From: Desulfurivibrio dismutans | GTDB taxonomy: Bacteria; Desulfobacterota; Desulfobulbia; Desulfobulbales; Desulfurivibrionaceae | Assembly: GCF_029210385.1 (NCBI RefSeq) | Contig: NZ_JARGDQ010000002.1 | Span: 62,001 to 126,000 of the forward strand | DNA length: 64,000 bases | Reading direction: 5' to 3' | In this document: positions 37,272-63,812 of the stretch, piece by piece | Position numbering within the stretch: position 1 is the stretch's first letter | How the letters are laid out: every line of letters begins with the position of its first letter | Program-made: the position numbers and the translations under genes | The notes under the pieces: generated by a model | Told to the model about the DNA's origin: nothing | Databases searched by the model: none | What the model saw: the letters and a program-made list of their open reading frames with translations, nothing else

Positions 37272-37288
37272 TTGGCACGTTTTGTGCT
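37272..37288 (+). promoter_or_regulatory. Candidate sigma-54 promoter upstream of lptA-lptB-rpoN
   Basis: TTGGCACGTTTTGTGCT has the -24 GG (37274-37275) and -12 GC (37286-37287) exactly 10 bases apart, as sigma-54 requires; the only departure from the TTGC box is G for the first T. It points right, towards lptA. The start of transcription would be near 37299, about 140 bases before a terminator-like hairpin. Confidence 0.5.
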
Positions 37289-38892: not shown

Positions 38893-40389
<1,497 letters not shown>

Positions 40390-49470: not shown

Positions 49471-49476
49471 AATTTC

Positions 49477-49525
49477 TGGCGCGCCTGGCAGGATTCGAAC
49501 CTGCGACCTACGGCTTAGAAGTCCG
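49477..49525 (-). tRNA. 3' part of tRNA-Arg(TCT), left attachment site (attL)
   Basis: Read on the minus strand, it has the anticodon loop CTTCTAA (anticodon TCT, Arg), the 3' anticodon stem GCCGT, the T arm GCAGGTTCGAATCCTGC, and an acceptor end with encoded CCA. The 5' half (acceptor 5' strand, D arm) is absent; unrelated DNA begins just past the anticodon. A tyrosine integrase gene starts 170 bases away. This is the duplicated tRNA 3' end left at one edge of an integrated element, and the intact tRNA should lie at the other edge, outside the window. Confidence 0.85.
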
Positions 49526-49622
49526 TTTTTTTATCTTCCCGCTTTTTCCCATAGTCTCACAATCCCTTGACATTAAATGCTTTCCTCTTTATCCTGTTTC
49601 CCATAAGTACCCTTGATTTCCC

Positions 49623-49693: not shown

Positions 49694-50890
49694 ATGGCAA
49701 CATGGAATAGGTCAAAATACCCAGGTATTAGATACAGGGAGCACGACACCCGCCGTCATGGGGTCGGAAATAAACCAGATCGGTACTACACCATTTTTTA
49801 TAAGCTGGATGGAAAGACAGTGGAAGAGGCCGTGGGCTGGGCCAGTCGGGGCATGACCGAAAAGAAAGCCGCCGCGATCCTGGCCGAGCTGCAAGAGAAT
49901 CACCGCCGTGGCACCGGCCCCCGAACCCTGAAAGAAAAACGGGAGCTGGGCGCAGCTGAACGCCAGGAGCAGGAAGAGCAGGCCACGCAGGACGCCATCG
50001 ACAACCTGACCCTTTCCGCCATATTCTATGACAAGTTTATCCCCCACATCCAAGCGAACCGCCGCGCCCTCAAATCGTGGAAACGAGACGAAGGCCTTTT
50101 TCGTCTCTGGATTGCCCCGGTTATCGGCAATAAACCCCTGCGAGACATTGCCCCTTTTGACCTTGAGAAGATCAAGAAGAGCATGACGAAGGCCGAAAAG
50201 GCCCCCCGCTCCATCGTCTATGCCTTGGCCACAATCCGCCTGGTGTTCAACTTTGCCCTGGCGCATGACCTTTACACCGGGAAGAACCCGGCAGGCCCGG
50301 CGGGCAAGGTGAAGAGGCCGACCACCGATAACAGTCGAACGCGCTACCTTTCACGGGAAGAGGCGGTTGCCCTACTGGCCGAACTTGCCGCGAGGAGCCA
50401 GGATGTTCACGACATGGCCTTTCTGTCGCTTTATACCGGCATGAGGGCAGGCGAGATTTTTTCCCTGACCTGGGCGGATATTGACCTTGATGGGGGTGTA
50501 ATCATGCTCAGGAAAACCAAGGGCAACAAGAACCGGGCTGCGTTTATGACCGGGGCAGTCAAGGCCATGCTGCAAGCCAGAACAAAAAGCGTACCGGCTG
50601 GGCTGGTGTTCCCTGGCCGCAATGGGGTAAAGATCGAGCAAGCGTCTGACACCTTTACGCGGGCAGTTGACAAGCTGGGGTTCAATGAGGGTATCGCCGA
50701 CCGGGAGCAGCGTGTCGTCTTCCACACCATGCGTCACACCTTCGCATCCTGGTTGGTTGAGATCGGTACCGATATTTACTATGTTATGAAATTGATGGGG
50801 CACTCTGACATAAAGCTCACGATGCGTTATGCCCACCTTGGAAAAAACTCATTGAGGGCGGCGGTGCATCGTCTTGAGGCGGCAGGATGA
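49694..50890 (+). CDS. int: Tyrosine-type site-specific integrase
   Basis: 398 residues. The catalytic residues are Arg in YTGMRAGEIFSL, Lys in the following beta-hairpin (LRKTKGNKNR), HTMRHTFASWL (HxxR), His in MGHSDIKLTMRY and the nucleophile Tyr in that last segment. N-terminal arm-binding and core-binding domains precede (residues ~1-190). It would integrate and, with an excisionase, excise the element at tRNA-Arg. Start ATG 49694 has AGGAGG 9 bases upstream. Confidence 0.94.
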   Translation: MATWNRSKYPGIRYREHDTRRHGVGNKPDRYYTIFYKLDGKTVEEAVGWASRGMTEKKAAAILAELQENHRRGTGPRTLKEKRELGAAERQEQEEQATQDAIDNLTLSAIFYDKFIPHIQANRRALKSWKRDEGLFRLWIAPVIGNKPLRDIAPFDLEKIKKSMTKAEKAPRSIVYALATIRLVFNFALAHDLYTGKNPAGPAGKVKRPTTDNSRTRYLSREEAVALLAELAARSQDVHDMAFLSLYTGMRAGEIFSLTWADIDLDGGVIMLRKTKGNKNRAAFMTGAVKAMLQARTKSVPAGLVFPGRNGVKIEQASDTFTRAVDKLGFNEGIADREQRVVFHTMRHTFASWLVEIGTDIYYVMKLMGHSDIKLTMRYAHLGKNSLRAAVHRLEAAG

Positions 50891-50920: not shown

Positions 50921-52318
50921 ATGGCTGAGAAAAAGTGGATTGATACTCCTGGCTTGAAGGATATTCTTGAAAAAGATGTGCCTTTGGCGGGGGAACTGTT
51001 GGCCAGTAACAGATACCCCATTCTTGTTAGGGGAATGCTTCGGACAGGCAAAAGCCACATTAGAGATAAAATATGGGAAGCAAGTGGTTTGGAGAAAATT
51101 AAGGAGGGGGTTATCAACTGTGCTGCAATACCAGAGAATTTGGCCGAGGCCATCCTTTTTGGGTACAAAAAAGGAGCATTCACAGGAGCTAGTAACAATA
51201 AGCCCGGTTTGCTCTTTGATGAATCCATACCGCCAAAAGTTGTCTTCTTAGAAGAGATCGGTGAATTACCTCAATACGTCCAAGCGAAACTCCTGGTTTT
51301 TTTTGATACTGGAGCTTTTATGCCAGTTGGAGCCGAGTGGGGACAAGGGGTAAAATCAACTTTGGTAGTTATAGCAACGTCAAATGCGGAAGATGATAAA
51401 TTTCGGCCTGACTTTTTGGCTCGATTTTGGGAAGTAAAAGTGCCCCCTCTTCATGAGCGGAGAGAAGACATCCCCTTTTTTCTAAACCTTTTTTTGGAGG
51501 GAAAAGAACAGCAACTTACAACAGAAGAGTTATTCCATTTAATGGCTTACAATTGGCCAAAGGGAGTTACTGAAATTGAAAAGACGTGCATAAAGATAAA
51601 ACATTATATTTTCACGATGAAACTTGCACGTTCAGAACGATATGATTTTGTGAAAAAGTTACTCACATCACTTCCTCCCGCTTACGATAATTATATGCAA
51701 TATTGCCATTATCTTGTTTGGCATGCAGATGATTATACAATAGAGAAATTATTCCCTTATTTTTGCATAGACTGGCCTAGCCCTAACAAGCAACCAATGG
51801 TTTACGATATTCATAAATTAATAAGAGAGTGGAAGGCGTGGTGTTTTTTCTTTGACCAGAACCCTAAATCACCGACAAATATTTATGAGGACATCCAGAA
51901 AAAAAAACCTGGTAAAGGTGGTTATTACGCAGATATTTTTCATCACTGGGGAGACAGCAAAAGAACTCTTGACCAATCATATGACAATGATCATAGGCTC
52001 GCATATTTTGTAGATTTTTTAAAAGAGCAAAAAATGTGGAACGAAGATGGCCTAACTTTTTTAAACAACTTTAGAAGAAATGCTTTTGAGGAACTTTTTG
52101 AGGCGCCAGAAGAAGAAAATAGCGCTGAAGCAGTGCAAGGGCAGCCCCCTCCATTTGAGACGATGCGCCCAAGTGACTATCTCGATCAATTTTGGGATTA
52201 TCAGGTAGAGCGTGGCCGGACGGGGGCAGAAATAGAGAAGAAGTATGGCATAAATAGAAAAACAGCTGAGACCAATATGAGGAATGTGAAGAAAAGATCA
52301 ACCGCGAGAGAGGATTGA
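50921..52318 (+). CDS. AAA+ sigma-54-interacting transcriptional activator, element-encoded
   Basis: 465 residues. The central AAA+ domain is of the NtrC class: Walker A RGMLRTGKS (residues ~37-45), GAFTGA loop within YKKGAFTGASNNKPGLLFDE, Walker B VVFLEEIGELP (Glu replaces the usual Asp) and VPPLHERREDIPFF. There is no N-terminal receiver, PAS or GAF domain, so it is not a classical two-component regulator. After ~residue 240 comes a long unfamiliar region, then a C-terminal HTH-like segment (GAEIEKKYGINRKTAETNMR). GAFTGA is the loop that contacts sigma-54, so activation of sigma-54 promoters is expected. The gene is clearly AT-richer than its neighbours, a sign of transfer. A perfect sigma-54 promoter lies 140 bases downstream. 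Confidence 0.8.
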   Translation: MAEKKWIDTPGLKDILEKDVPLAGELLASNRYPILVRGMLRTGKSHIRDKIWEASGLEKIKEGVINCAAIPENLAEAILFGYKKGAFTGASNNKPGLLFDESIPPKVVFLEEIGELPQYVQAKLLVFFDTGAFMPVGAEWGQGVKSTLVVIATSNAEDDKFRPDFLARFWEVKVPPLHERREDIPFFLNLFLEGKEQQLTTEELFHLMAYNWPKGVTEIEKTCIKIKHYIFTMKLARSERYDFVKKLLTSLPPAYDNYMQYCHYLVWHADDYTIEKLFPYFCIDWPSPNKQPMVYDIHKLIREWKAWCFFFDQNPKSPTNIYEDIQKKKPGKGGYYADIFHHWGDSKRTLDQSYDNDHRLAYFVDFLKEQKMWNEDGLTFLNNFRRNAFEELFEAPEEENSAEAVQGQPPPFETMRPSDYLDQFWDYQVERGRTGAEIEKKYGINRKTAETNMRNVKKRSTARED

Positions 52319-52320
52319 TA

Positions 52321-52348
52321 TTAATCCAAACAGGATTTAAATTAATCC
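52321..52348. promoter_or_regulatory. TTAATCC/GGATTAA boxes upstream of the sigma-54 promoter
   Basis: TTAATCC at 52321-52327, an inverted imperfect copy GGATTTAA at 52333-52340, and TTAATCC at 52342-52348, just after the activator gene stop and ~110-135 bases upstream of the -24 element. The spacing suits an enhancer for a sigma-54 activator. Two more copies lie after the promoter (52497-52513). Confidence 0.5.
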
Positions 52349-52420
52349 TTTGAGTTCGATTGGCGCAGTTAGCTCTCCGTGAACTGATCCGCGCATTTAC
52401 TTAAAAATTTATATAATATC

Positions 52421-52455
52421 AACCCGTTATGGCGCTTGTCATGACGGGTTTTTTT
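52421..52455 (+). terminator. Rho-independent terminator after the activator gene
   Basis: AACCCGTTATG, loop GCGCTTGT, CATGACGGGTT (one G-T pair) followed by a run of T. It insulates the activator gene from the operon driven by the adjacent sigma-54 promoter, whose first base is only two bases on. Confidence 0.9.
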
Positions 52456-52456
52456 G

Positions 52457-52473
52457 TTGGCACGGACATTGCT
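52457..52473 (+). promoter_or_regulatory. Consensus sigma-54 promoter
   Basis: TTGGCACGGACATTGCT matches the sigma-54 consensus YTGGCACGN4TTGCW at every fixed position, with -24 GG (52459-52460) and -12 GC (52471-52472) 10 bases apart. Transcription should start near 52484 and run into the excisionase-like, primase and downstream genes. It stands between the element's own AAA+ activator and its replication genes. Confidence 0.85.
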
Positions 52474-52496
52474 GTAGTAACACCCAAGAACCCATG

Positions 52497-52513
52497 GGAT
52501 TAAGAGGGATTAA
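52497..52513. promoter_or_regulatory. Tandem GGATTAA boxes in the early transcribed region
   Basis: GGATTAA at 52497-52503 and again at 52507-52513, 10 bases apart (one helical turn), just after the predicted start of transcription. The same box, inverted, occurs upstream of the promoter. Such placement fits an operator for a regulator binding cooperatively. Confidence 0.5.
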
Positions 52514-52536
52514 TATAAATGTTAGAGAGGAGCAAA

Positions 52537-52764
52537 ATGAGAGATCCCGACATTATCGAACATTTAAGACAACAGCTGCCTGTGGCTTTTGGGAGAACAG
52601 AAGTAGAAAAACTTCTCCCGGGAATCACCTCATCCAAAACGCTTGCGAATCTCTCAAGTTGCGGAGAAGGCCCGCCTTTTTATTACCATGGAAGAAAGGT
52701 TTTTTATGAAAAAGAGGGTTTTCTCAGTTGGCTTTCAAAGAGAATTAAGCCAGGAAACTATTGA
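52537..52764 (+). CDS. Excisionase-like / HTH DNA-binding protein
   Basis: 75 residues. FGRTEVEKLLPGITSSKTLA followed by NLSSCGEGPP and YYHGRKVFYEKEGFLSWL is the pattern of small MerR-like winged-helix proteins that serve as excisionases or AlpA-like regulators in integrative elements. ATG 52537 has AGAGAGGAG about 7 bases upstream. It is the first gene after the sigma-54 promoter, so excision may be under sigma-54 control. Confidence 0.75.
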   Translation: MRDPDIIEHLRQQLPVAFGRTEVEKLLPGITSSKTLANLSSCGEGPPFYYHGRKVFYEKEGFLSWLSKRIKPGNY

Positions 52765-52875
52765 GGCCATCATCATGATACGACATCTTATTTGTACTAT
52801 GGTGGTATGTCAAACTCAAGATGGCGAGAGATCCAGAATTGGATGTCATCGGCTGATTACTGAGGGTGAGCCGGG

Positions 52876-53055
52876 ATGAGTTCAGGTATTTACTTGGAAT
52901 CAGAGCTTTTGACTTCGGCTACCGTCAAAGGATTTGGCAAATGGGAGTGGAAAATCTATCTCAGATTTCTACAAGGGTCCTTTTCAAGCCCAAAACGACC
53001 AAGAACCGGTCGTCAGAAAAGATCGTCGTCAATAATGGTGAAACAATATGATTGA
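52876..53055 (+). CDS. Small hypothetical protein (59 residues)
   Basis: Starts MSSGIYLESELLTSATVKGF, then KWEWKIYLRFLQG, and ends in a basic Ser/Arg/Lys-rich tail. It is supported mainly by its stop overlapping the start of the primase gene (ATGATTGA), which is typical of coupled genes. No known domain; it may be a small DNA-binding helper of replication. The ribosome site is weak. Confidence 0.45.
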   Translation: MSSGIYLESELLTSATVKGFGKWEWKIYLRFLQGSFSSPKRPRTGRQKRSSSIMVKQYD

Positions 53056-55441
53056 CGCGGCCCACACTCTGCTCGCTGCTGGTTTTTCAGTCATCCCCAC
53101 CGGAGCAAACAAGAAAGCATCTATCCCCTGGGCACAGTACCAACAACAGAGGATGACGGCGGATGAGGCCAAACAGCACTTCACCAATGGCGCAAGGCTG
53201 GCTATTATCGGTGGGAAGGTGTCCGGAAATCTCGAATGTCTGGACTTTGACGACCCCACCACATACCATCCTTTTCTTGACCTGCTGGAAATGCGGTGCC
53301 CTGGCCTACCGGATAAGCTGCTGAAGAGACAGACCCCTTCCGGTGGGTATCATTTGATTTATCGTTGCTCTACTCCTGTTGCTGGCAATCTCAAACTTGC
53401 CATGATGCCGGGGGTAGATGATGACGGAAAACCGAAGGAAGACGTCCGTATAGAAACCAGGGCTGAAGGCGGATATTTTCTTTCAGCCCCTTCTGAGGGC
53501 TACAGGGTTCTTTCCGGCAGCATGACAAAATGCCCCACATTGATCGCTGAGGAAGTGGATGTGATCCATACCACGGCCAAGGCGTTTGACCTGCGAAAAT
53601 CTACCAAAGGAGGGACCACTCCCCGCACCAGCGAAAACAGCAATTCACCCGGCAGCCAATTTAACCAGGCACACCAAGTGGCCGACATTTTAGAGGCCAA
53701 GGGCTGGAAGGTAGATAGGCGTACTACCTTGGGAACGGGATGGACGCGGCCCGGCAAGGATAAAGACACTTCCGGCGTTTTGTTGGATGACAGCGGCAAC
53801 TTCTATGTCTTCAGCGCAAACGCTTACCCGCTGGAGCCTGGGCAGTCTTACAGCGCTTTTGCAATTTACGCCGCCTACAATCACGGCGGAGACTATTCAG
53901 CAGCAGCCCGCGATCTTGCCCGTCAGGGTTTCGCGGAGCAACCGAGAGCCGTTTCAAATGAAACGAAATCGAAAATCAAACCATTACCCGCCACCTTGGA
54001 CCCAGTTGCACAATTTGATTACGACCTGCTGCCGGAGGCCCTACGGGACTGGTGCCGTGACGTTGCCGAGCGTATGCAAGCCCCGCCTGACTTCGTGGCT
54101 GTGGGCTTGCTGGTGGCAGCGGGCGCAACCCTAGGGCGTAAGATCGGGATAAGGCCGCAACAGCACACACCCTGGACCGAAGTTGCTAACCAGTGGGGCT
54201 TGATTGTGGCCCGGCCCGGCAAGCTCAAAACACCATCCCTGGATGACGCCATGGGACCGCTTAACCGGCTCATAGCATCCGCGACAGATCGGTTTCAGCA
54301 GAAGCTGCGGCAGTACGAGCGGGAAAAAGAGGCTGAAGAACTGCGGCAGCAGGCCAGGAAGAAAGCGGCCAAGGATCGGCTGAAGGAAAACCCCGACGCC
54401 GACATCTCGGACTTGCAGGGGCAGGAGATGGAGTCGCCTACCCTGCGCCGGTACAAGACCAATGACCCGACCCCGGCCGCCCTGGGCGAACTCCTGCGAG
54501 TAAACCCCAACGGTTTAATGGTCTTTCGTGATGAGTTGGTCTCTTTGTTTCGGCAGCTTGACAAGGAAGACAACGCCGAGGGGCGCGGATTTTACCTGAC
54601 GGGATGGGGCGGTAACTCCCCGTACACGTTCGACCGCATCGGGCGCGGGCTTAACCTTCACCTGGAGGCGGTCTGCATTAGTGTGCTGGGTGGTACTCAA
54701 CCGGGGAAGTTGGCAGGGTACATCCAGGAAGCCGTCAAAGGGGGGGCTGGTGATGATGGCCTGCTGCAACGGTTCGGGCTGCTGGTCTGGCCCGATGACC
54801 ACCACAAATGGCAGAACATCGACCGGCCCGTCAATATGGTCGCCAAAAATGCCGCCTACGCAGCTTTTGAACACCTGGACAAGCTGAACCCCGCCGAAGT
54901 AGGGGCAAAGCAGGACAAGGACTTCAGCGGCGACCCAGAGGGCATACCCTATCTACGTTTCGACACCGAAGCCCTAGCCCTGTTCACCGAGTGGCGGACC
55001 GACCTGGAAAACAAAAAGCTCTGTGGCGACGACCACCCCGCGATTGTCTCTCACTTAGCAAAATACAGAAAGCTGGTGCCTTCACTGGCCCTGATCTTCC
55101 ATATCATGGACGGTGGATCAGGGGCTGTTACCTTGCCTGCGGTGCTGCGCGCCCTGGCCTGGGCGGAGTATCTCGAAACGCACGCCAGAAGGGCTTACGG
55201 CGCTGTTACAAAACCGGAGGTGGGGGCAGCCAAAAGCATCCTGAAGAAGCTGAAGTCAGGAACCCTGGCTGGTTCATTTACGGCCCGCGATATATACCGT
55301 GCAGGCTGGACGGGTTTAGGTGATCGGCAGACAGTGGTCGATGCGCTAGAGCTGCTGGTTGATCACGGCTACCTGGGAGAGCAGGTCGAGTCCACCGGCG
55401 GCAGGCCGACAAGTGCCTACAACTGGCAGGGGGTGGGGTGA
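53048..55441 (+). CDS. Primase-polymerase (Prim-Pol) with DUF3987 domain
   Basis: 797 residues. The N-terminal ~230 are a bifunctional primase/polymerase domain (FSVIPTGANKKASIPW, then LECLDFDDP with metal-binding acidic residues, then SGGYHLIYRC). A degenerate zinc-less linker region follows, then from ~residue 330 a DUF3987 domain (LLVAAGATLGRKIGIRP, LMVFRDELVSLFRQL). The combination is typical of replication proteins of satellites and genomic islands, which copy the element after excision. A winged-helix tail (VVDALELLVDHGYLGE) may bind the origin. Confidence 0.9.
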   Translation: MIDAAHTLLAAGFSVIPTGANKKASIPWAQYQQQRMTADEAKQHFTNGARLAIIGGKVSGNLECLDFDDPTTYHPFLDLLEMRCPGLPDKLLKRQTPSGGYHLIYRCSTPVAGNLKLAMMPGVDDDGKPKEDVRIETRAEGGYFLSAPSEGYRVLSGSMTKCPTLIAEEVDVIHTTAKAFDLRKSTKGGTTPRTSENSNSPGSQFNQAHQVADILEAKGWKVDRRTTLGTGWTRPGKDKDTSGVLLDDSGNFYVFSANAYPLEPGQSYSAFAIYAAYNHGGDYSAAARDLARQGFAEQPRAVSNETKSKIKPLPATLDPVAQFDYDLLPEALRDWCRDVAERMQAPPDFVAVGLLVAAGATLGRKIGIRPQQHTPWTEVANQWGLIVARPGKLKTPSLDDAMGPLNRLIASATDRFQQKLRQYEREKEAEELRQQARKKAAKDRLKENPDADISDLQGQEMESPTLRRYKTNDPTPAALGELLRVNPNGLMVFRDELVSLFRQLDKEDNAEGRGFYLTGWGGNSPYTFDRIGRGLNLHLEAVCISVLGGTQPGKLAGYIQEAVKGGAGDDGLLQRFGLLVWPDDHHKWQNIDRPVNMVAKNAAYAAFEHLDKLNPAEVGAKQDKDFSGDPEGIPYLRFDTEALALFTEWRTDLENKKLCGDDHPAIVSHLAKYRKLVPSLALIFHIMDGGSGAVTLPAVLRALAWAEYLETHARRAYGAVTKPEVGAAKSILKKLKSGTLAGSFTARDIYRAGWTGLGDRQTVVDALELLVDHGYLGEQVESTGGRPTSAYNWQGVG

Positions 55442-56046
55442 TGAGCTACCTCGAAAAACTGAAAAAACTGAATATGCCGCCGAACCACACTGACAAAACT
55501 GACAAAAGTACTTTTGTCAGTTTTGTCAGTACCCCTCAGAGGCATTTTTCACTTTTTATTGATGAGGATGAGGGGGAAACGGCCCAAAAAAATGAAAATA
55601 TGCCCCCTAACCCTACTGACAAAACAGACAAAAGTATTCAGGGCGATGAAGAAGAGATCAGGGCGACGGGGAACCGCACCTGGGAGCGTGGTAACCCGCA
55701 CCTCTGCGATTGCGGTTTTGAAACTGGCTGGACGCTGGGCGGTGCGCCTCTTTGCCCTGGCTGCTGGCACGACCAGGCACCAAAGCAGGAGGCGGCCAGT
55801 AAGCAGGCCACGCCGGCCCCGGCCAACTGCGAAGGCTGCGCCGATCTCTTACTGGACATCACCGGCGGTGAAAGAACACCGGGCTGCTCGCCCAGCGGCG
55901 ACGGCCTTTCCGACTGGCAACCACTGACGGCACTGGCCAGCTGCCCGCTCAACAGCGGAGGCGAACGGCACCACCGTTCAGCTAATCGCTCGTCCTCAAT
56001 CCTCTCTGTTCCAGACAACTCATTAAGGAGCTATTGCAGTGCCTGA
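55441..56046 (+). CDS. Zinc-ribbon-like protein with repeated TDKTDKS motif
   Basis: 201 residues from ATG 55441, which overlaps the primase stop (TGATG). MPPNHTDKTDKS near the start is repeated as MPPNPTDKTDKS about 40 residues later; the first copy is encoded by a 42-bp perfect palindrome. The middle has CDCGFETGW, then LCPGCW, then CEGCADLL, a likely zinc-binding set. The last ~50 residues are low-complexity and may be non-functional. The role is unknown; genes next to DUF3987 primases in other elements often carry similar repeats. Confidence 0.65.
   Translation: MSYLEKLKKLNMPPNHTDKTDKSTFVSFVSTPQRHFSLFIDEDEGETAQKNENMPPNPTDKTDKSIQGDEEEIRATGNRTWERGNPHLCDCGFETGWTLGGAPLCPGCWHDQAPKQEAASKQATPAPANCEGCADLLLDITGGERTPGCSPSGDGLSDWQPLTALASCPLNSGGERHHRSANRSSSILSVPDNSLRSYCSA
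55489..55530. repeat. 42-bp perfect palindrome within a coding sequence
   Basis: ACTGACAAAACTGACAAAAGT (21 bases, given here only as its repeated half-unit CTGACAAAA) is followed immediately by its exact reverse complement, with no loop. It encodes TDKTDKSTFVSFVS. The half-unit recurs at about 55616-55634. Position beside the primase gene makes an origin, iteron or regulatory hairpin plausible. Confidence 0.85.
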
Positions 56047-56476
56047 TAGCACGCAAAAAACACGCCAAATTGACGGCAAATGGAAACCAGGCACCAGTGG
56101 CAACCCCACCGGCAGGCCAATCAGTAACCCCGCCCGGCGGCTACTGGCGGATAACTCGGAAAAACTGGTGCAAGCGGCCATCGACAAGGCACTTGACGGC
56201 GATACGGCGGCCCTGAACGTTTGCCTGTCCAGGATATTGCCCGCCTATCGGCCGACGATCAAACCCGTTGTGCTGAACGTTGATCCGTCGGCTGACCTGG
56301 TGGAAATCGGTCGGCAGGTGGTAAGCGCGGTGGCCGCCGGTGAATGCCCACCAGACGTTGCTGGTCAACTTCTACAGGGGCTGGGAACCCTGGCAAGGAT
56401 TACCGAGATCGAAGAGCTTAAAGACCGTCTTGCCGCCCTGGAGACTGCTATTAATCTCAATAAAGGTGCAAAATGA
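56039..56476 (+). CDS. DUF5681 domain protein
   Basis: 145 residues. The N-terminal GKWKPGTSGNPTGRP is the DUF5681 hallmark, found mostly in phages and phage-like elements, often near terminase genes. The rest is helical (KALDGDTAALNVCLSRILP, then LEEL-type coil near the end). The start is a GTG at 56039 with TAAGGAG 7 bases upstream. Its end overlaps the next gene by 4 bases (ATGA). Confidence 0.8.
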   Translation: MPDSTQKTRQIDGKWKPGTSGNPTGRPISNPARRLLADNSEKLVQAAIDKALDGDTAALNVCLSRILPAYRPTIKPVVLNVDPSADLVEIGRQVVSAVAAGECPPDVAGQLLQGLGTLARITEIEELKDRLAALETAINLNKGAK

Positions 56477-56940
56477 AGATCAAAGACCAGACGTATGAGA
56501 ACCTGACCCCGGATCAGCGGGTTGTTGCATTGATGGAAGCCAGCATCCGGGACGACGAGGCCGAAATGCGGCGGCTTGTCGCAACTACCCCGCGCAGGAC
56601 TTACGTCCAAGGGGACGCAGCAGTTGTTGACAAATTGGAATGGCTAACCGCCCTGTGCATTGCCATTGAGCTGGATATGGCCAATATGGCCCTGACTGCC
56701 TTTCTGGTGCAAAAACATGACGGAATAAAGGCGTCGTTCAACGAAGCGGCTATCATGGCCGCGATGAACGAAGCCAGTGCCCGGTGGTTTGAAAGCAGAA
56801 ATGTCCCTCGTGAAACCTGGCTGAAATTCCGACCCAAGCGCCATTTCATGGTGGACAACCTGATTGACCTGGCGCCTGAACCTGCTGATTTTGACGTACA
56901 AAATATTCTGGACCAATGGGCCAGGCAGGACATTTTCTGA
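56473..56940 (+). CDS. Hypothetical protein, related to its downstream neighbour
   Basis: 155 residues, no known domain. The N-terminus KIKDQTYENLTPDQRVVALM, with EASIRDDEAEMRRLVATTPR, is patterned like the next gene's product (TY..L.P..R.VA...A..R.D..E...LV...PR), so the two are diverged duplicates. It is largely helical. Tight packing in the operon suggests a real gene. Confidence 0.65.
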   Translation: MKIKDQTYENLTPDQRVVALMEASIRDDEAEMRRLVATTPRRTYVQGDAAVVDKLEWLTALCIAIELDMANMALTAFLVQKHDGIKASFNEAAIMAAMNEASARWFESRNVPRETWLKFRPKRHFMVDNLIDLAPEPADFDVQNILDQWARQDIF

Positions 56941-56947
56941 GGCCGTC

Positions 56948-57487
56948 ATGCAAATTCCAAAATCAACATATCAATCTCTGTCCCCAGCTCCCCGCGCCGT
57001 TGCGGCCTTCCTGGCAATCAACCGTTGCGATGGGAGCGAGGCAGAAAAACTGGTTGGCTCCGCCCCAAGGGGTGGGGGTCACGGGAAGCCAATTCTGGCC
57101 CTGGGCCAGGCAATTGACGCCTACAATCGTCTGGCCGGTCACTTTTTCATTCAAATGCAAAGCAGGCTCGATCTTTGGTCGGAGACGCTGGCCTACTGCG
57201 AGGCTTGGTTGGCAGCTGGCGGTGATCTTCAGGATGAGGGGTATCTTGGCAAATACAAAAATCTTGACCACCTAAAGGGCGAAGCGACTGAGTGGGCGGC
57301 GTCATTGGAGGCGGTCAGGGTGGCGGTCAGGGAATGGGCTGATAACAGCGGTGTTCCAAGAAAGGTGTTTTCCGGCCCTCTGGTCTTGGTGGACCTTGAG
57401 AAACCCCTGGGCGACTTCAAGGCGGACAATGAAGTGCTGGCCGTGGTCCGGGAATTATTCGATGACCGCTTATCTTTGGCCTGGTGA
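56948..57487 (+). CDS. Hypothetical protein, related to its upstream neighbour
   Basis: 179 residues from ATG 56948. It opens QIPKSTYQSLSPAPRAVAAF and shares its N-terminal pattern with the preceding gene product; the C-terminal two thirds differ and are helical. It begins 7 bases after that gene's stop. Function unknown. Confidence 0.6.
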   Translation: MQIPKSTYQSLSPAPRAVAAFLAINRCDGSEAEKLVGSAPRGGGHGKPILALGQAIDAYNRLAGHFFIQMQSRLDLWSETLAYCEAWLAAGGDLQDEGYLGKYKNLDHLKGEATEWAASLEAVRVAVREWADNSGVPRKVFSGPLVLVDLEKPLGDFKADNEVLAVVRELFDDRLSLAW

Positions 57488-57529
57488 ATACAGGATTGTA
57501 CACCATCATTTACACTGAGAGGCAAGATC

Positions 57530-58071
57530 ATGGCTAAAAATGCAGCCCGGGCAGGGTACAGCCCGAAAGTGGCGCGACAGGTGGCGGCCGAGAACATGAC
57601 AAAACCTGTCATTGCCGAAGCGATCAGGAAGGCGAAACAGGTGCGGACGGGACGCGTCCAAGTTGATCAGGATTATGTGATCAACAAGATCAAGGAGACA
57701 TTGAGAGGTGCTCCCAGGAGCGTCCGGTTCTGGATAAGGCGGGAAACCCTGTGTTGGTAGAGACGGCGACCGGCGATCTGACACCGGCATACGAGTTCGA
57801 CGCCATGGCCGTGCTGCGAGGTGCTGACCTTCTCGCGAAGCACGTAGGTCTCTACGAGCGGAACAACAACCAGAAGCGTTTGGACCTGGGCGGGGACCCT
57901 CGCTCCGTGCTGGAGGTCTTGATAAGCAAATTGAACAAGTTGATAGTCAGGATGGGGCAACCACGGCATCAGGAGAAAATAGTGGTTAGCTACGATTTGG
58001 ATACCAAAGCGCACGGCCAGGAGTTGGTCGATGCGTTGATTATCGGCCTTCACGGCCTCAAAAAACCTTAA
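57530..58071 (+). pseudogene. Frameshifted terminase small subunit-like gene
   Basis: From ATG 57530 the first frame reads AARAGYSPKVARQVAAENM and DQDYVINKIKE, typical of the Terminase_2 small subunit (TerS). The matching continuation, ERCSQERPVLDKAGNPVLVE then DAMAVLRGADLLAKHVGLYE, is in another frame from about 57697 to 58071, so one base appears lost near 57696-57701. The N-terminus before AARAGYS is also shorter than usual. Intact TerS proteins recognise DNA for packaging and are a typical gene of phage satellites. No slippery sequence is seen, so programmed frameshifting is unlikely. Confidence 0.65.
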
Positions 58072-58084
58072 CGGAGGTATTTTT

Positions 58085-58309
58085 ATGGAAAGATTTCGAA
58101 CCAAACACCATGTAGTCGGCGGGGCTGTGGGTATCGACATTCCTGGCGGGGTGCCGCTGGAAAGCGTTGCCAGCGTCTTGTCGGGTGAGCTGCGTGATGT
58201 CCGCGCCCTGATGGCCCGCTTTGGGGGTGCCGCACCAGCGGGTGAGGCCATGTGGACCTTGGCCCGTGAGCAGCAGACCGCTGACCGGTTGGCCGAACTG
58301 GAAGGCTAA
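58085..58309 (+). CDS. Small hypothetical protein
   Basis: 74 residues, starting MERFRTKHHVVGGAVGIDI and ending in a helical segment rich in Ala and Glu. GGAGG lies about 8 bases before the ATG. No known domain. Last gene before the terminator at 58365, so likely the end of the sigma-54-driven operon. Confidence 0.55.
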   Translation: MERFRTKHHVVGGAVGIDIPGGVPLESVASVLSGELRDVRALMARFGGAAPAGEAMWTLAREQQTADRLAELEG

Positions 58310-58364
58310 ATCACGCACTGCGTGACGGCACAACCGGTAGGTGCTACGAGGTTGTGTTGCCCCG

Positions 58365-58397
58365 CCCCACCGATCCGCTGCGATTGGTGGGGCTTTT
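58365..58397 (+). terminator. Rho-independent terminator at the end of the replication operon
   Basis: CCCCACCGATC, loop CGCTGC, GATTGGTGGGG (one mismatch or wobble) then CTTTTTG. It follows the small gene at 58085-58309 by 55 bases. Confidence 0.85.
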
Positions 58398-58977: not shown

Positions 58978-59988
58978 ATGAATATTCCTCTAGCATTTGA
59001 AAGTCTGAACGAGACCGATATTCGGGAGGAGGTACTTGCCCCCCTTATTAGAAGTCTTGGCTACAGCTCAGGGACACCGAACAACGTTATTCGAGAACAG
59101 TCGTTGCGGTATCCAATGATGTCTCTCGGTCGCAAGGACACCAAGAGAGATCCTGCGCTTCGGGGTAAAGCGGACTACATTCTTGAAGTACAACAACGTG
59201 TGCGCTGGGTTATCGAAGCAAAGGCCCCAGAGATCACTCTCGGCGTAGACGACATAGAACAAGCATGGACATACGCCAACCACCCAGAAGTTCGTGCCGT
59301 CTATTTTGTTCTATGCAATGGCCGTGTTCTTCTTGTTTATCGAACTGTTCACGGCCCTGAAGCACCGCCAGTTCTTTCTCTCACATATGAGCAGTTGGAG
59401 TCGGACTTTCAGGTACTCTCGAATCTTGTCAGCCCCGACGCTCTGCTGCGAGACTTCCCTGACGTAGGAATCGACGTTGGAGTACCAATAGCTCCTGGGC
59501 TTAGATCAATTGCTCGGATCACAAATGGCTTTATTCGCTATGAAGCCAATAGCCTTGGGTCGCCGATGCTGAGTGAACTCCAAAATGGAATCCGAGAAGG
59601 AGCTATCGAGCGCGATAGCAATGGAACATTAGTTGTATTCTTGAAGACTGGCGGACCTAGTAGTTCTCTTCAAGAGCTTAACGAAAGGCTGGGACTTTCT
59701 ATATTTGAAATGACCAGTCCAGACACCCAGCTTTCCAGCGACCCATCGCATCCAACGTTATTAACTTATGCTCATCGTGTCATTCTCCCGGCCGGCGAGA
59801 AATTACTTGACCTGAACACTTGGAAACATATTCAGCTTCCCCAAAATATTACCTGCGATGTTTGTTCAAGGGCTAGCGGCGTATTTGAAAACCGCATCTT
59901 TTCCGGGCGCTTTATGACGGATATGCATTACCTTGAATCTGGTATGACCGTCAACATGTCTGGCTCGTTTGAGGTTCATCTTGCGTAG
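58978..59988 (+). CDS. HsdR N-terminal-like restriction endonuclease-fold protein
   Basis: 336 residues. Residues ~10-150 match the N-terminal nuclease domain of type I restriction HsdR subunits: DIREEVLAPLIRSLGY, then GKADYILEVQQ and WVIEAKAP, giving the PD-(D/E)xK residues Asp, Glu and Lys. No helicase or HsdM/HsdS partner follows. The C-terminal ~180 residues are unknown, with a lone Cys pair in CDVCSRASG. Stand-alone proteins of this kind are common in defence islands. The codon use is less GC-rich than that of the ABC-3C genes that follow. Confidence 0.75.
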   Translation: MNIPLAFESLNETDIREEVLAPLIRSLGYSSGTPNNVIREQSLRYPMMSLGRKDTKRDPALRGKADYILEVQQRVRWVIEAKAPEITLGVDDIEQAWTYANHPEVRAVYFVLCNGRVLLVYRTVHGPEAPPVLSLTYEQLESDFQVLSNLVSPDALLRDFPDVGIDVGVPIAPGLRSIARITNGFIRYEANSLGSPMLSELQNGIREGAIERDSNGTLVVFLKTGGPSSSLQELNERLGLSIFEMTSPDTQLSSDPSHPTLLTYAHRVILPAGEKLLDLNTWKHIQLPQNITCDVCSRASGVFENRIFSGRFMTDMHYLESGMTVNMSGSFEVHLA

Positions 59989-60160
59989 CCCCAACCTGCG
60001 TAAAAAGCTGCGCAGGCCACTCACTTCTACGTTATGCCGCTGGAAAGCGACGCTGGAAGGACCGTACGAGTTGAGAGTGTGAAGAACGAAACGTTCTCCG
60101 GAGTTTTATCTTAACCACGATAAGACCACTGAAGCCTGCAATCAAGAGTCAATTGGATCG

Positions 60161-61384
60161 ATGAAAGACTCAACCACCGACAAATATTCAGCTGGCGAAC
60201 AGGGACTGGGATACATTTACCAGGCGCGGCTGGCCCTGCTCCATCTCCTGCAATTGCCTGAGGAAACCGCCGTCTTCCTAGAAAAGGATGATGACCTCGA
60301 TTTCATCGACGGCGATGGCGGAAAATCTCTGGCCTCGCTCAAACACAAGGCGGTCGGTGACCACTTAACCGATCTTTCGACCGATTTCTGGAAGTCCGTC
60401 AATATCTGGTTGGCGCGGTACAAACGTGATGGCCGCGCCGCATCAAACCTGCGGTTCTTCCTATTCACCACTGGCACGGTGTCGGCCGGCTCGTTCCTCA
60501 CCCGCTTCCTCCCCGACCAGCCTCTCTCCTCCGGTGATGCAGCCACTCTGACCGAGTTGGCGAATGCCGCGCTCGCCAAGTCGAAGTCACAGCTCATTGG
60601 CCAGATCGCCAAGGAGTTCAACGAACTGAGCGACCCCGAGAAGCAGAGTTTTCTCGAACGTATCCTGATCCTCGATGGAAGCCCGCGCATTGGCGACATC
60701 CCGGCGACGATCAAGAACAAGTACATGCGAAGCGTCCGGCGCGATCACCGCGAGTTCGTCTTCGAGCGACTCGAAGGTTGGTGGAACGATGCCGTCATCA
60801 AGCAGTTGACCAACGCCAGAACTGAAGGAATCTTCGGCTACGAGGTCTCGGACAAGCTGTCCGCCTTTGCCGAGGAATACAAGATCGACAACCTCCCCAT
60901 CACTTTCCGAGGAAAGGTGCCCGCCGACGACATCGACACCGAGACCGACCCGCGACTGTTCGTAGTGCAACTGCGCGAAATCGGTATTTCCTCCAACCGG
61001 ATCAGGAGCGCGATCCTGGACTACTACAGGGCGTTCGAGCAGCGGTCAGCCTGGGCGCGTGAAAACCTCTTGGTATCAGGAGAGGTCGAGGAATACGAAG
61101 ATCGTCTTGCTGATGAGTGGAATCGTTACAAGGATGTCGCATTTGAGAAACTAAAGGAGGACAGCGCCGAGGACGCACTGCAGGAAGCCGGCGCGATCGT
61201 CTACAACTGGGCGGAGTTCGAGACAGGGAAGATCGAATCCCTGCGCATCCGCGCGCGGGTGACCGAGCCCTACGTTCTCCGCGGCAGCTTACACATCTTG
61301 GCGGATACCACTCCGGAACCCCGGGTCTATTGGCATCCCAGGTTCCTCGACCGTCTTGGCAAGGTGCTGGGGGTGGCTAAATGA
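60161..61384 (+). CDS. ABC-3C system effector with DUF4297/Cap4-like nuclease N-terminus
   Basis: 407 residues. The N-terminus GEQGLGYIYQARLALLHLLQ, then FLEKDDDLDFID and SLASLKHKAVGDHL, has the Glu/Asp...xLKxK arrangement of DUF4297 (Cap4-type) PD-(D/E)xK nucleases, followed by a helical middle and a C-terminal domain of about 120 residues. In ABC-three-component systems this is the effector held in check by the ATPase pair. Its stop overlaps the next start (ATGA). The specific C-terminal domain class is not assigned. Confidence 0.7.
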   Translation: MKDSTTDKYSAGEQGLGYIYQARLALLHLLQLPEETAVFLEKDDDLDFIDGDGGKSLASLKHKAVGDHLTDLSTDFWKSVNIWLARYKRDGRAASNLRFFLFTTGTVSAGSFLTRFLPDQPLSSGDAATLTELANAALAKSKSQLIGQIAKEFNELSDPEKQSFLERILILDGSPRIGDIPATIKNKYMRSVRRDHREFVFERLEGWWNDAVIKQLTNARTEGIFGYEVSDKLSAFAEEYKIDNLPITFRGKVPADDIDTETDPRLFVVQLREIGISSNRIRSAILDYYRAFEQRSAWARENLLVSGEVEEYEDRLADEWNRYKDVAFEKLKEDSAEDALQEAGAIVYNWAEFETGKIESLRIRARVTEPYVLRGSLHILADTTPEPRVYWHPRFLDRLGKVLGVAK

Positions 61385-61869
61385 AGCGATGGGACCAGCG
61401 CCCCTTTGAGATAAGGAATTTGTTCAACCCCGCCTTCTGCGGCTTGGTACTGTTCCGCGCCCTGCATAGCTACGAAGAAGAAGACGCCCGCGGAATGCCC
61501 TTCTCGCTGTCGCTGCTGGTGTTGCCCCTGTGCCTGCACAAGGACTCACGCGAGGTAATCGCTAGTAGCCCGCGTAGTTACCTACTCAAGACCACGGAGA
61601 AAAACCAGCAGCTAATGGTGGGCTTCGCAGACAGGGTCACCCAAATGCTGCCCTACACGTTCGAGGGGTTCGGTCTGCTGATGGAAAGGGGCTGCATTGT
61701 CATCGCTGACGACGGGCGCATACAAACAGTGCCAAATAAGGTGCGCAAGACCTTCACTGGAACAGACGAAACCGTCTCATGCCAGAAAGTGGCGCGAGTC
61801 TTCGGAAGGGAATTCGCGCGAATCGCTGACCGGGTGACCGTTTACATGACTTTCGGGATTCGTCCATGA
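61381..61869 (+). CDS. ABC-3C system middle component
   Basis: 162 residues. RPFEIRNLFNPAFCGLVLFR is the characteristic opening of middle-component proteins of ABC-three-component defence systems, followed by an all-helical body with MPFSLSLLVLPLCLHKDSRE. It overlaps both neighbours by 4 bases (ATGA at each end), implying fixed stoichiometry. The middle component is thought to link the effector to the ATPase. Confidence 0.72.
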   Translation: MKRWDQRPFEIRNLFNPAFCGLVLFRALHSYEEEDARGMPFSLSLLVLPLCLHKDSREVIASSPRSYLLKTTEKNQQLMVGFADRVTQMLPYTFEGFGLLMERGCIVIADDGRIQTVPNKVRKTFTGTDETVSCQKVARVFGREFARIADRVTVYMTFGIRP

Positions 61870-63812
61870 AGATTAGTTCTATTCACATCTATAGCCACGA
61901 CGGCCAACGCCGGGATCTCCAGTTCAAGGTGGACGGGCTAAACGTCATCACAGGCCGATCCTCCACCGGTAAGTCCGCGCTCTCCGAGATCATCGAGTAC
62001 TGCATGGGGCGCTCCTCGTTCAACGTCCCCGAAGGCGTCATCCGCGACAAGGTGGCTTGGTTCGCCGTGATCTACCAGTTCGAGAACGAGCAGGTTCTGG
62101 TTGCCAAGCCGACCCCGACCGCAGGTGGTGCCAGCTGCAGCACTGCGATGCTGCGGCGGGGAACTCAATTGCGGGCCCCTTCGTTCAAGGACCTGGCAGT
62201 CAACACGGACGACGACACCATCGTCGAACTGCTGTCGCGTCTGCTCGGAATTCCCGAGAACCGTACCGAAGTGGCACTCGAACACAGCCGCGACAGCTTC
62301 GACGTGAATGTAAAGCATACGATTTATTACCTGTTCCAGAAGCAGGGGCTGGTTGCCAACAAGGACCAGCTTTTCTACCGCCAGAATGAGGACTACCAGC
62401 CGCAGACGATCCGCGATACGCTTCCGATCCTTCTCGGCGTTTCCTCCCGCAACCGCTATGAACTCGAGTCCAAGCTGCGCACGGCTAAGAGGGACCAGAG
62501 GATCAACACGAAGCAGTTGGAGCATGCGCGCGACGCCGTCGACACGTCGCACGATAAGGCCATCGGCCTTTACTCGGAAGCCAAGGCGGTCGGCGTCATC
62601 GGCAAGACCGACGGGAACCCCAATCCCAATGCGATCATCGACGCATTGAGATCGGCCCTGTCGTGGAAGCCCGAAACGGTACCCGACGACGACGGCAGCC
62701 GGATTTCGTGTCTGGAGGAAGAACTGGTCCAGTTGCGCAAGCAACGCCGCGAGACCCAGGCCAGGATCGATTCGACGCGCCAGTTTGCCATGCGGGCCGG
62801 GGGCTACGAAAGCGAGGCCGCAGAACAGGTGGACCGGCTGTCCTCGATCAAGGCGCTACCGAAGAACCCAGAGACCGGCGAGTGGCAATGGCCGTTCAGC
62901 GAGCGGAACCTGGCACTAGAATCGCCCATCGCCACCGTTCTGCTCTACGAGCTGGCGTCGCTCGACAAGGAGTTGCGCATAGCCACCGGCCAGCGTCCCA
63001 AGCTCGAAGCCTACCTCACCGATCTGGCCAGCACGGTGGATGAGATCGCGGGCGCCATCAGGCGGAAGGAAGCGGAGCTTTCCGCGGCGTTTTCGGCCAA
63101 CGAGGTCATCGCACAGATAGGGACCCGCAACAACGCGGCCGCGCGCGTCGTGGGCCGTATAAGCCTGTTCCTTGAAACCCTCCTCCCGAACGAAGATCTC
63201 GCCAGGCTGGAAGCGGATAATCGCCGCATCAAGAACAAGGTGCAGCAGCTAGAGGACCAGATCGGCGCCGACGACAGCGACGAACGCTTAGCTTCGATCC
63301 TCAACAACATCTCCGCACAGGTAACGCGGTACATCCAGACGTTCAACGCTGAATTCGGCTCATACCCAGCGCGGCTCAATCTGTCTCAGTTGACGATCAT
63401 CTTCGATCGACCTGAACGTTGGGTCCCGATGGCCCGGACGGGAGGCGGAGCGAACCATCTGGCCTACCACCTGTCGGTGTTGCTCGCCCTGCATCTGTTC
63501 GCTGCCCAGAACAACCGCCCGATCCCGCGCTTCCTCCTGATTGACCAGCCGAGTCAGGTTTACTTCCCGTCTGAACAGGTCTACAAGGATGCCGATGGCT
63601 CAGTTCAGAGGACCGAAGCCGACGCCGACCTCAATGCCGTGCGCCGGCTATTCGAGTTGTTGCTGCAGTTCACTCAAGAGGACGTCCCCGGCTTCCAGTT
63701 GATCGTTACAGAGCACGCAAATCTTCGAGAGCATTGGTTCCAGGACACCTTGGTAGAACTGCCTTGGACAAAGCCGCCAGCGCTGGTTCCTGAAGACTGG
63801 AATCAAGAATGA
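61866..63812 (+). CDS. ABC-3C system ATPase (DUF3732, SMC/RecN-like)
   Basis: 648 residues. Walker A GRSSTGKSAL at residues ~30-39, a coiled-coil middle (~190-480), an ABC-like signature near 525 (GGGANHLAYHLSVLLALH) and Walker B FLLIDQPSQVYFP near 558, where Gln follows the Asp, as is usual for DUF3732. It is the motor or sensor of the three-component system, expected to detect invading DNA. The 188 bases after it, to the window edge, show nothing recognisable. Confidence 0.85.
   Translation: MKISSIHIYSHDGQRRDLQFKVDGLNVITGRSSTGKSALSEIIEYCMGRSSFNVPEGVIRDKVAWFAVIYQFENEQVLVAKPTPTAGGASCSTAMLRRGTQLRAPSFKDLAVNTDDDTIVELLSRLLGIPENRTEVALEHSRDSFDVNVKHTIYYLFQKQGLVANKDQLFYRQNEDYQPQTIRDTLPILLGVSSRNRYELESKLRTAKRDQRINTKQLEHARDAVDTSHDKAIGLYSEAKAVGVIGKTDGNPNPNAIIDALRSALSWKPETVPDDDGSRISCLEEELVQLRKQRRETQARIDSTRQFAMRAGGYESEAAEQVDRLSSIKALPKNPETGEWQWPFSERNLALESPIATVLLYELASLDKELRIATGQRPKLEAYLTDLASTVDEIAGAIRRKEAELSAAFSANEVIAQIGTRNNAAARVVGRISLFLETLLPNEDLARLEADNRRIKNKVQQLEDQIGADDSDERLASILNNISAQVTRYIQTFNAEFGSYPARLNLSQLTIIFDRPERWVPMARTGGGANHLAYHLSVLLALHLFAAQNNRPIPRFLLIDQPSQVYFPSEQVYKDADGSVQRTEADADLNAVRRLFELLLQFTQEDVPGFQLIVTEHANLREHWFQDTLVELPWTKPPALVPEDWNQE

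Follow-up and report, generated by a model that had tools for sequence, protein, structure and literature searches.

We analysed a 64,000-nucleotide stretch of Desulfurivibrio dismutans DNA (contig NZ_JARGDQ010000002.1, positions 62,001 to 126,000 of the forward strand; hereafter the window, numbered from its first letter) that contains the left part of an integrated, satellite-like element. The element encodes a sigma-54 activator, and we consider it probable, at about 0.7, that this dedicated enhancer-binding protein drives the element's own -24/-12 promoter through the host sigma factor RpoN and thereby serves as its induction switch. An element-encoded activator acting through host RpoN had been proposed in an original prediction made from the DNA letters. 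This proposal is supported at the sequence level by a perfect promoter site, by upstream dyads unique in the genome, by a perfect consensus site for integration host factor (IHF), by an rpoN gene in the host and by recurrence of the site in three of five other relatives. We read the result as a standard sigma-54 switch in a satellite-like integrative element; its parts are known, and the combination is new. Among the titles and abstract openings listed in a literature search, with most subscription journals outside its coverage, there was no sigma-54-gated satellite or island.

The activator gene is followed by a perfect -24/-12 site

The predicted switch comprises the following features.

50921..52318, + strand: sigma-54 activator (AAA+, GAFTGA), 465 amino acids; open reading frame and Pfam match
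52311..52327, + strand: putative upstream activator dyad 1, AGGATTGATATTAATCC; sequence pattern
52332..52349, + strand: putative upstream activator dyad 2, AGGATTTAAATTAATCCT; starts 21 bp past the start of dyad 1
52417..52429, + strand: perfect IHF consensus, TATCAACCCGTTA; overlaps the terminator stem
52421..52450, + strand: terminator 3' of the activator gene; hairpin-like
52457..52473, + strand: predicted -24/-12 sigma-54 promoter, TTGGCACGGACATTGCT; consensus match, start expected near 52484
52496..52513, + strand: two more half-sites, GGGATTAA, 10 bp apart; just 3' of the expected start
52537..52764, + strand: small AlpA/excisionase-like protein, 75 amino acids; our own reading, without family match
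38923..40380, + strand: host rpoN; outside the element, about 9 kb to its left

The promoter sequence TTGGCACGGACATTGCT agrees at all fixed positions with YTGGCACGNNNNTTGCW, which we take to be the -24/-12 consensus and which was used for site matching. No equal site arose when the 218-bp gap was shuffled 3000 times by dinucleotides, and six perfect sites occur genome-wide compared to none for the reversed pattern. Both the perfect site and the terminator after the activator gene, as named in the original prediction, were recovered. A one-mismatch sigma-54-like site, TTGGCACGTTTTGTGCT, is also present at 37272-37288, outside the element.

The two dyads start 21 bp apart and would therefore lie on the same face of the helix. 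Their pattern, AGGATTN6AATCC, occurs at no other place in the 2.84-Mb genome. All four TTAATCC heptamers of the window fall within 52321-52513, and one more copy was found in the 39 kb spanning the element and its flanks. The perfect IHF consensus, as printed in the accessible text of PMC3897727, occurs three times in the whole window, one copy being located between the dyads and the promoter. At the level of sequence, the parts of the predicted switch are thus demonstrated, as are the distances between them, their uniqueness and the partial degree to which they are conserved.

Between 49300 and 60200, only two terminator-like sites with at least 12 pairs were detected, and these flank the predicted transcript. 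No sigma-70-like match was observed on the + strand from the terminator to 53180. As the next terminator occurs at 58364, one transcript could therefore span the excision, replication and packaging genes and end before the cargo.

For the small gene after the promoter, a start at 52537 is likelier than one at 52519, as it is preceded by a good ribosome site. No match was obtained in Pfam at E <= 0.1 or 0.05, nor in PHROGs at 0.01; the 81-amino-acid form gave a weak match to phrog_25262 (E 0.074). In a search of six loci, the protein was 36% identical over 67 amino acids (E 9e-5) to its positional counterpart in a related element, and the label 'excisionase-like' is based on this match and on our own reading of the sequence. 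Of the original claim that the promoter faces excisionase-like and primase genes, the gene order and the primase held, while the identity of the excisionase has this match and our reading behind it and no family support.

The activator lacks a known sensor domain

The activator gene begins 30 bp past the integrase stop codon. Pfam identified a Sigma54_activat domain at residues 27-172 (E 1.1e-27; 97.2 bits with a cut-off of 20.2), and no receiver, PAS or GAF family was found in the protein at E <= 0.1. The AAA+ part occupies residues 27 to 225 or so, preceded by only about 30 residues, and is followed by an unfamiliar region at about 230-410 and a probable helix-turn-helix at about 415-460. 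The latter assignment is drawn from the sequence together with the genome-unique dyads, since no Pfam, PHROG or NCBIfam match was obtained beyond residue 230 or so, the predicted helix-turn-helix region included. The original description of an AAA+ protein with an intact GAFTGA loop, no receiver, PAS or GAF domain and an unfamiliar middle of about 200 residues is therefore accurate, including after the profile searches that it had called for. That the unfamiliar C-terminal half senses the trigger is a guess.

The best NCBIfam match was RtcR (E 4.8e-35), confined to the AAA+ part (residues 29-206) and scoring 121.4 bits with a cut-off of 650. RtcR carries a CARF sensor domain ahead of its AAA+ domain. 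The window activator shares the AAA+ domain and the GAFTGA loop with RtcR and other sigma-54 activators; in contrast to RtcR, it starts with the AAA+ domain and has no N-terminal sensor, contains about 190 unfamiliar residues between the AAA+ domain and the presumed helix-turn-helix, and would act on a mobile-element operon. With the ATPase motifs at what we take to be their usual positions and roles, Walker A, both presumed Arg fingers and the Asn of sensor I are retained; Walker B and the sensor II Arg are altered. Across the AAA+ region, the nonsynonymous substitution rate (dN) was 0.16 and the synonymous rate (dS) was saturated, giving a dN/dS of about 0.04 over 143 codons and indicating that this region is under purifying selection.

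The arrangement recurs in several related elements

Relatives were sought in 193 genomes, in 395 genomes of the phylum and, by profile search, in 257 genomes of the order. As the best 4 to 8 candidates per genome were scored, all family counts are lower bounds. Homologous activators, with the AAA+ domain first and an unfamiliar C-terminal half, were identified in five other integrase-bearing elements and as one pseudogene. The 193 genomes yielded the pseudogene, which is the closest relative of the window activator (71% identical, adjoining an integrase; genome G189, L036:10091-10680), a homologue of about 450 amino acids adjoining an integrase and a tRNA-Arg (G172; L010, L053) and one of 486 amino acids (G166; L031, L054). 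A further homologue came from the phylum search (G568; L055), and two elements of a single genome from the profile search of the order (G070; L087 and L088). Intact members are thus present in at least 4 of the 257 order genomes and, by profile, in at least 2 of the 395 phylum genomes (G000 and G568). The activator directly follows the integrase in the window, L036, L053, L087 and L088; in L054 and L055 the two genes are about 10 kb apart. With residues 235-465 as query, only the window activator itself was recovered among the 193 genomes. Profile matches in G264 and G296 were not counted in the family, and candidates in G316, G495 and G543 were rejected as ordinary activators with N-terminal domains (a receiver-type start in G316, by our own reading).

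Between the activator and the next gene, L088 contains a perfect -24/-12 site (0 of 3000 shuffles, as in the window), and L054 and L087 contain sites with one mismatch (1 and 2 of 3000, respectively). Since the activators of L087 and L088 share 88% identity, this amounts to a site kept in three of five independent cases. In L088, L054 and L087 the site precedes a small gene without family match and then a primase, that of L087 being assigned by its 88% DNA identity to L088. As a control, we used the best 80 of at least 557 other activator relatives (from at least 589 stretches, mostly ordinary activators). Of these 80 loci, 5 had a site with no more than one mismatch within 300 bp 3' of the gene and none a perfect one, compared to 4 of the 6 intact family members, 2 of them perfect. 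An integrase-like match was present at the control loci L192 and L238; the latter, from a Spirochaetes metagenome-assembled genome, has an activator of ordinary length with a GAFTDA loop, a one-mismatch site 178 bp 3' and the integrase-like match about 3.5 kb away.

The dyads of the relatives were also compared with shuffles: 1 of 400 was as good for L054 and for L088, 4 for L087 and 26 for L053, compared to 371 (not significant) for L055. The dyad of L087 and L088, AATGGAACANTGTTCCATT, allowing one mismatch, occurs at two places in the 4.2-Mb genome, one per element. These two elements share the dyad but not the -12 element or the GAFTGA loop. Loops are GAFTGA in the window and GAFTGA, GAFTDA or GASSTA in the relatives; GAFTDA is listed as a variant expected to retain activity in the accessible text of PMC4641369. 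A co-variation of loop and -12 element (GAFTGA with TTGC; GAFTDA with TTGT or TTGG, in L087, L088 and L054) was considered and dropped, as the cases are too few and L053 does not fit.

The activator gene has a GC content of 38-42% in all seven cases, the pseudogene included, compared to 40-57% for the integrases and 47-57% for the six replication genes measured. The integrases of the relatives are 21-46% identical to that of the window, and the primases belong to different kinds (Prim-Pol/DUF3987, NrS-1 type, RepB type and DUF927; the gene at the primase position of L053 had no PHROG match). The uniform activator GC content, the distant integrases and the different primases point to a module that moved between elements, and a swappable activator gene is the simplest reading of these sequences. 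A broader version, to which we give somewhat less than even odds, holds that a low-GC cassette of activator, dyads and -24/-12 promoter was acquired by unrelated satellite-like elements that differ in integrase and primase, that RpoN gates their excision and replication, and that the fast-changing C-terminal half is a receptor for each element's own signal, probably a helper phage product. The L036 pseudogene lies upstream of genes that read, in our hands, like conjugation genes, and the module thus presumably also entered another kind of element.

The window and L054 elements have in common the integrase (46% identity), the small gene after the site and a DUF5681 protein; two window open reading frames align to a further L054 protein. 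L087 and L088 share DNA from the integrase to an SSB-like gene and a short stretch at the right end. L087 encodes a small terminase (Terminase_2, 155 amino acids) and L088 a large one, a pair as expected of satellites.

Receiver-less activators on viral contigs

A family-profile scan of IMG/VR viral contigs gave 62 loci, which were divided into short (up to 320 amino acids) and long (>320 amino acids) open reading frames; three short ones (L145, L147, L154) were excluded before clustering. The 31 short viral activators formed 14 clusters, one of which comprised 17 of the proteins. In 5 of the 14 clusters, a -24/-12 site with no more than one mismatch was located within 100 bp 3' (perfect in 3), and none was present in the other 9; in the control bins, 15 of 3633 had such a site and 5 of 3633 a perfect one. 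For long viral activators, the 100-bp interval contained a perfect site in 1 of 28. Loci with perfect sites within this distance are L116, L121, L123-L130, L133, L139, L140 and L151, and their activators are mostly short and receiver-less.

L116 and L139 match phrog_7998, a family of 'unknown function'. In L116, L129, L139 and L140, which were annotated in part, the activator lies amid helicase, exonuclease and DNA polymerase genes. The phrog_7998-like activators resemble that of the window in lacking a receiver and, in 5 of the 14 clusters, in being closely followed by a perfect or one-mismatch site; they differ in being shorter, in lying amid replication genes and in the absence of an integrase from the four annotated loci. 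These pairs on phage contigs suggest that sigma-54 control has been under-counted in mobile elements.

IMG/VR scans with the window protein or the motif TGKSHIRDK found nothing, and a two-member core pattern matched 181 viral stretches, none of them a relative. A tblastn search of the window activator against 50,697 phage records returned 64 records, none with 80% query coverage; in our judgement, many of them look like host DNA filed as phage. The corresponding searches with two IMG/VR phage activators returned 66 records each, of which 0 and 27 exceeded 80% coverage, all at <60% identity.

Proposed mechanism and alternatives

Activator binding, dependence on RpoN and excision are steps that we infer from these arrangements. 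Most likely, the activator would be made at a low level together with the integrase and would sit inactive on the dyads (about -165 and -144), bound by its C-terminal helix-turn-helix. A signal received by the unfamiliar C-terminal half would then lead to assembly of the ATPase ring and, with the DNA bent at the IHF consensus, to opening of the -24/-12 promoter by host RpoN polymerase. The resulting transcript, from about 52484 to 58393, would carry the AlpA/excisionase-like, primase and terminase-like genes, upon whose expression the island would excise and replicate. As to the trigger, a helper or invading phage is our guess. Because related elements carry the same activator and promoter arrangement, the data suggest that the departure of such elements from the chromosome is gated by host RpoN. 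Without its activator a sigma-54 promoter stays silent, and it would therefore provide a tight, ATP-driven on/off gate. If true, such a gate with an element-encoded sensor would represent a logic distinct from repressor-based switches; to our knowledge, satellite sensing of when to leave the chromosome is understood in few systems.

Several observations weigh against this mechanism. A single window dyad was equalled in 72 of 400 shuffles, which is not significant, and the case for the window dyads is therefore made by the tandem copy and the genome-wide uniqueness. Among five IHF/HU-like protein matches in the host, the best IHF-alpha match was below the curated cut-off, and no perfect IHF site was found in the other five members (one-mismatch sites occur in L055 and L087). 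A single-sequence AlphaFold model of the activator was useless (mean predicted local distance difference test score, pLDDT, of 39.8), leaving the sensor idea without structural support. In L055 the site is weak (three mismatches, 67 of 3000 shuffles), the loop reads GASSTA and the gene after the site is unlike the small excisionase type; L053, with three mismatches and 247 of 3000 shuffles, has no credible site. As a check, the original prediction had asked whether homologues go together with tRNA-integrated elements and a -24/-12 promoter. An integrase is present throughout and the site occurs at the same place in three of the five others; activators kept without a site, which it had named as contrary evidence, are represented in part by L053 and L055.

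The activator of L053 and the fact that a consensus match is not equal to function also favour a chance match, with the operon read from a sigma-70 or read-through promoter. This is very improbable given the shuffling result, the rightly spaced dyads and IHF consensus, the recurrence in L054, L087 and L088, the terminator just upstream and the lack of a + strand sigma-70-like match up to 53180. A decaying remnant, in which activator or element is non-functional, would account for the apparent frameshift in the small terminase subunit, for the pseudogene in G189 as closest relative and for two changes that could weaken the window activator: Walker B reads EE, with Glu in place of Asp, a feature of 5 of 6 members, and Thr stands at the position of the sensor II Arg (WPKGVTE) in this protein only (1 of 6). 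We regard decay as unlikely, as the activator reading frame is intact (dN/dS about 0.04, from 143 codons with saturated dS) and none of dyads, IHF consensus and promoter is missing. Less easily set aside, and still rather unlikely, is a real switch that does not sense phage, RpoN and the activator tying the element to the state of the host (nitrogen, surface or redox). Activators such as PspF, which lack an N-terminal sensor, are controlled through partner proteins; activator genes next to a possible target are not uncommon (the 5 of 80 control loci), and no helper phage is known for the element. On the other hand, the large C-terminal half varies between elements, suggesting a varying signal, and the target would be an AlpA-like/primase operon, alpA being the point of helper-phage action in E. 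coli EcCICFT073 according to the accessible text of PMC6092414. The preferred reading remains an induction switch dedicated to the element.

Comparison with known systems

Phage use of sigma-54 is already known: according to the accessible text of PMC5053324, development of the Pseudomonas phage YuA is strictly dependent on host sigma-54. The proposed dependence on host sigma-54 is the likeness here, YuA being a phage, unlike the integrative satellite in the window. Islands of the EcCICFT073 type resemble the element in having a terminal integrase, an AlpA-like gene (in the window by our own reading, without family match) followed by a primase, a small terminase in some of them and phage-resistance cargo. 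In EcCICFT073 a helper phage raises alpA transcription and AlpA starts the island cycle, the phage inducer being still under study in 2018 (both islands and cycle as described in the accessible text of PMC6092414). In contrast, the element analysed here has its own sigma-54 activator, dyads and -24/-12 promoter 5' of the AlpA-like gene, measures 25 kb and has no known helper phage, the two being likened by gene layout. P4 is not known to be controlled through sigma-54, unlike the control proposed here. Compared by gene content, P4-like satellites share with the element an integrase, an AlpA/Vis-like protein, a primase-helicase and defence cargo (in part after the accessible text of PMC6092414, in part as we take them to be).

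Borders, gene order and cargo of the element

The integrated element is about 25.3 kb long and extends from 49473 to beyond the right window edge. Its remaining features in the window are given below.

49473..49525, - strand: left attachment site (attL), 3' half of tRNA-Arg(TCT); own reading of the sequence
49567..49595, + strand: sigma-70-like promoter 5' of the integrase; consensus match only
49694..50890, + strand: tyrosine integrase; family search
53048..55441, + strand: primase-polymerase with a DUF3987 part; Pfam, PHROGs
56039..56476, + strand: DUF5681 protein; Pfam, homologue in the G166 element
56864..57487, + strand: unknown protein; homologue in the G166 element
57530..57760, + strand: small terminase (Terminase_2), partial in this frame; Pfam, PHROGs
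58364..58393, + strand: strong terminator, predicted end of the sigma-54 transcript; terminator search
58978..63812, + strand: cargo, HsdR_N-like protein and Lamassu LmuA, LmuC and LmuB; family searches

An intact tRNA-Arg(TCT) was identified by ARAGORN at the right end (contig C12:136747-136823, which would be 74747-74823 in window numbering), and the two copies of the 53-bp end repeat are 91% identical. With half a tRNA gene at the left end and the whole gene at the far end, the element is linked to a tRNA, as the original prediction had implied. The gene order is integrase, activator, regulatory gap, AlpA/excisionase-like gene, primase, small genes and defence cargo. No capsid, tail or virion genes were found among the element proteins searched, which represent part of its open reading frames. 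The gene content fits a satellite.

The rest of the small terminase may be encoded in another frame at 57751-58071 (our own reading, without family match), and the split across 57530-57760 and 57751-58071 may be due to a frameshift or a sequencing error. Type I restriction genes lie beyond the window edge, the specificity subunit being identified by search and the remaining genes by our own reading. Three adjoining genes at L053:3761-12214 (- strand) encode proteins of 1963 and 359 amino acids, neither of which had a PADLOC match at E <= 0.001, and a second AAA+ protein in which an unfamiliar N-terminal region precedes GAFTGA. L035:3011-5182 encodes a type I specificity subunit with about 240 additional N-terminal residues, an extension that presumably resembles a NADAR domain. 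The gene is located after a 345-amino-acid unknown gene, between HsdM-like and HsdR-like genes.

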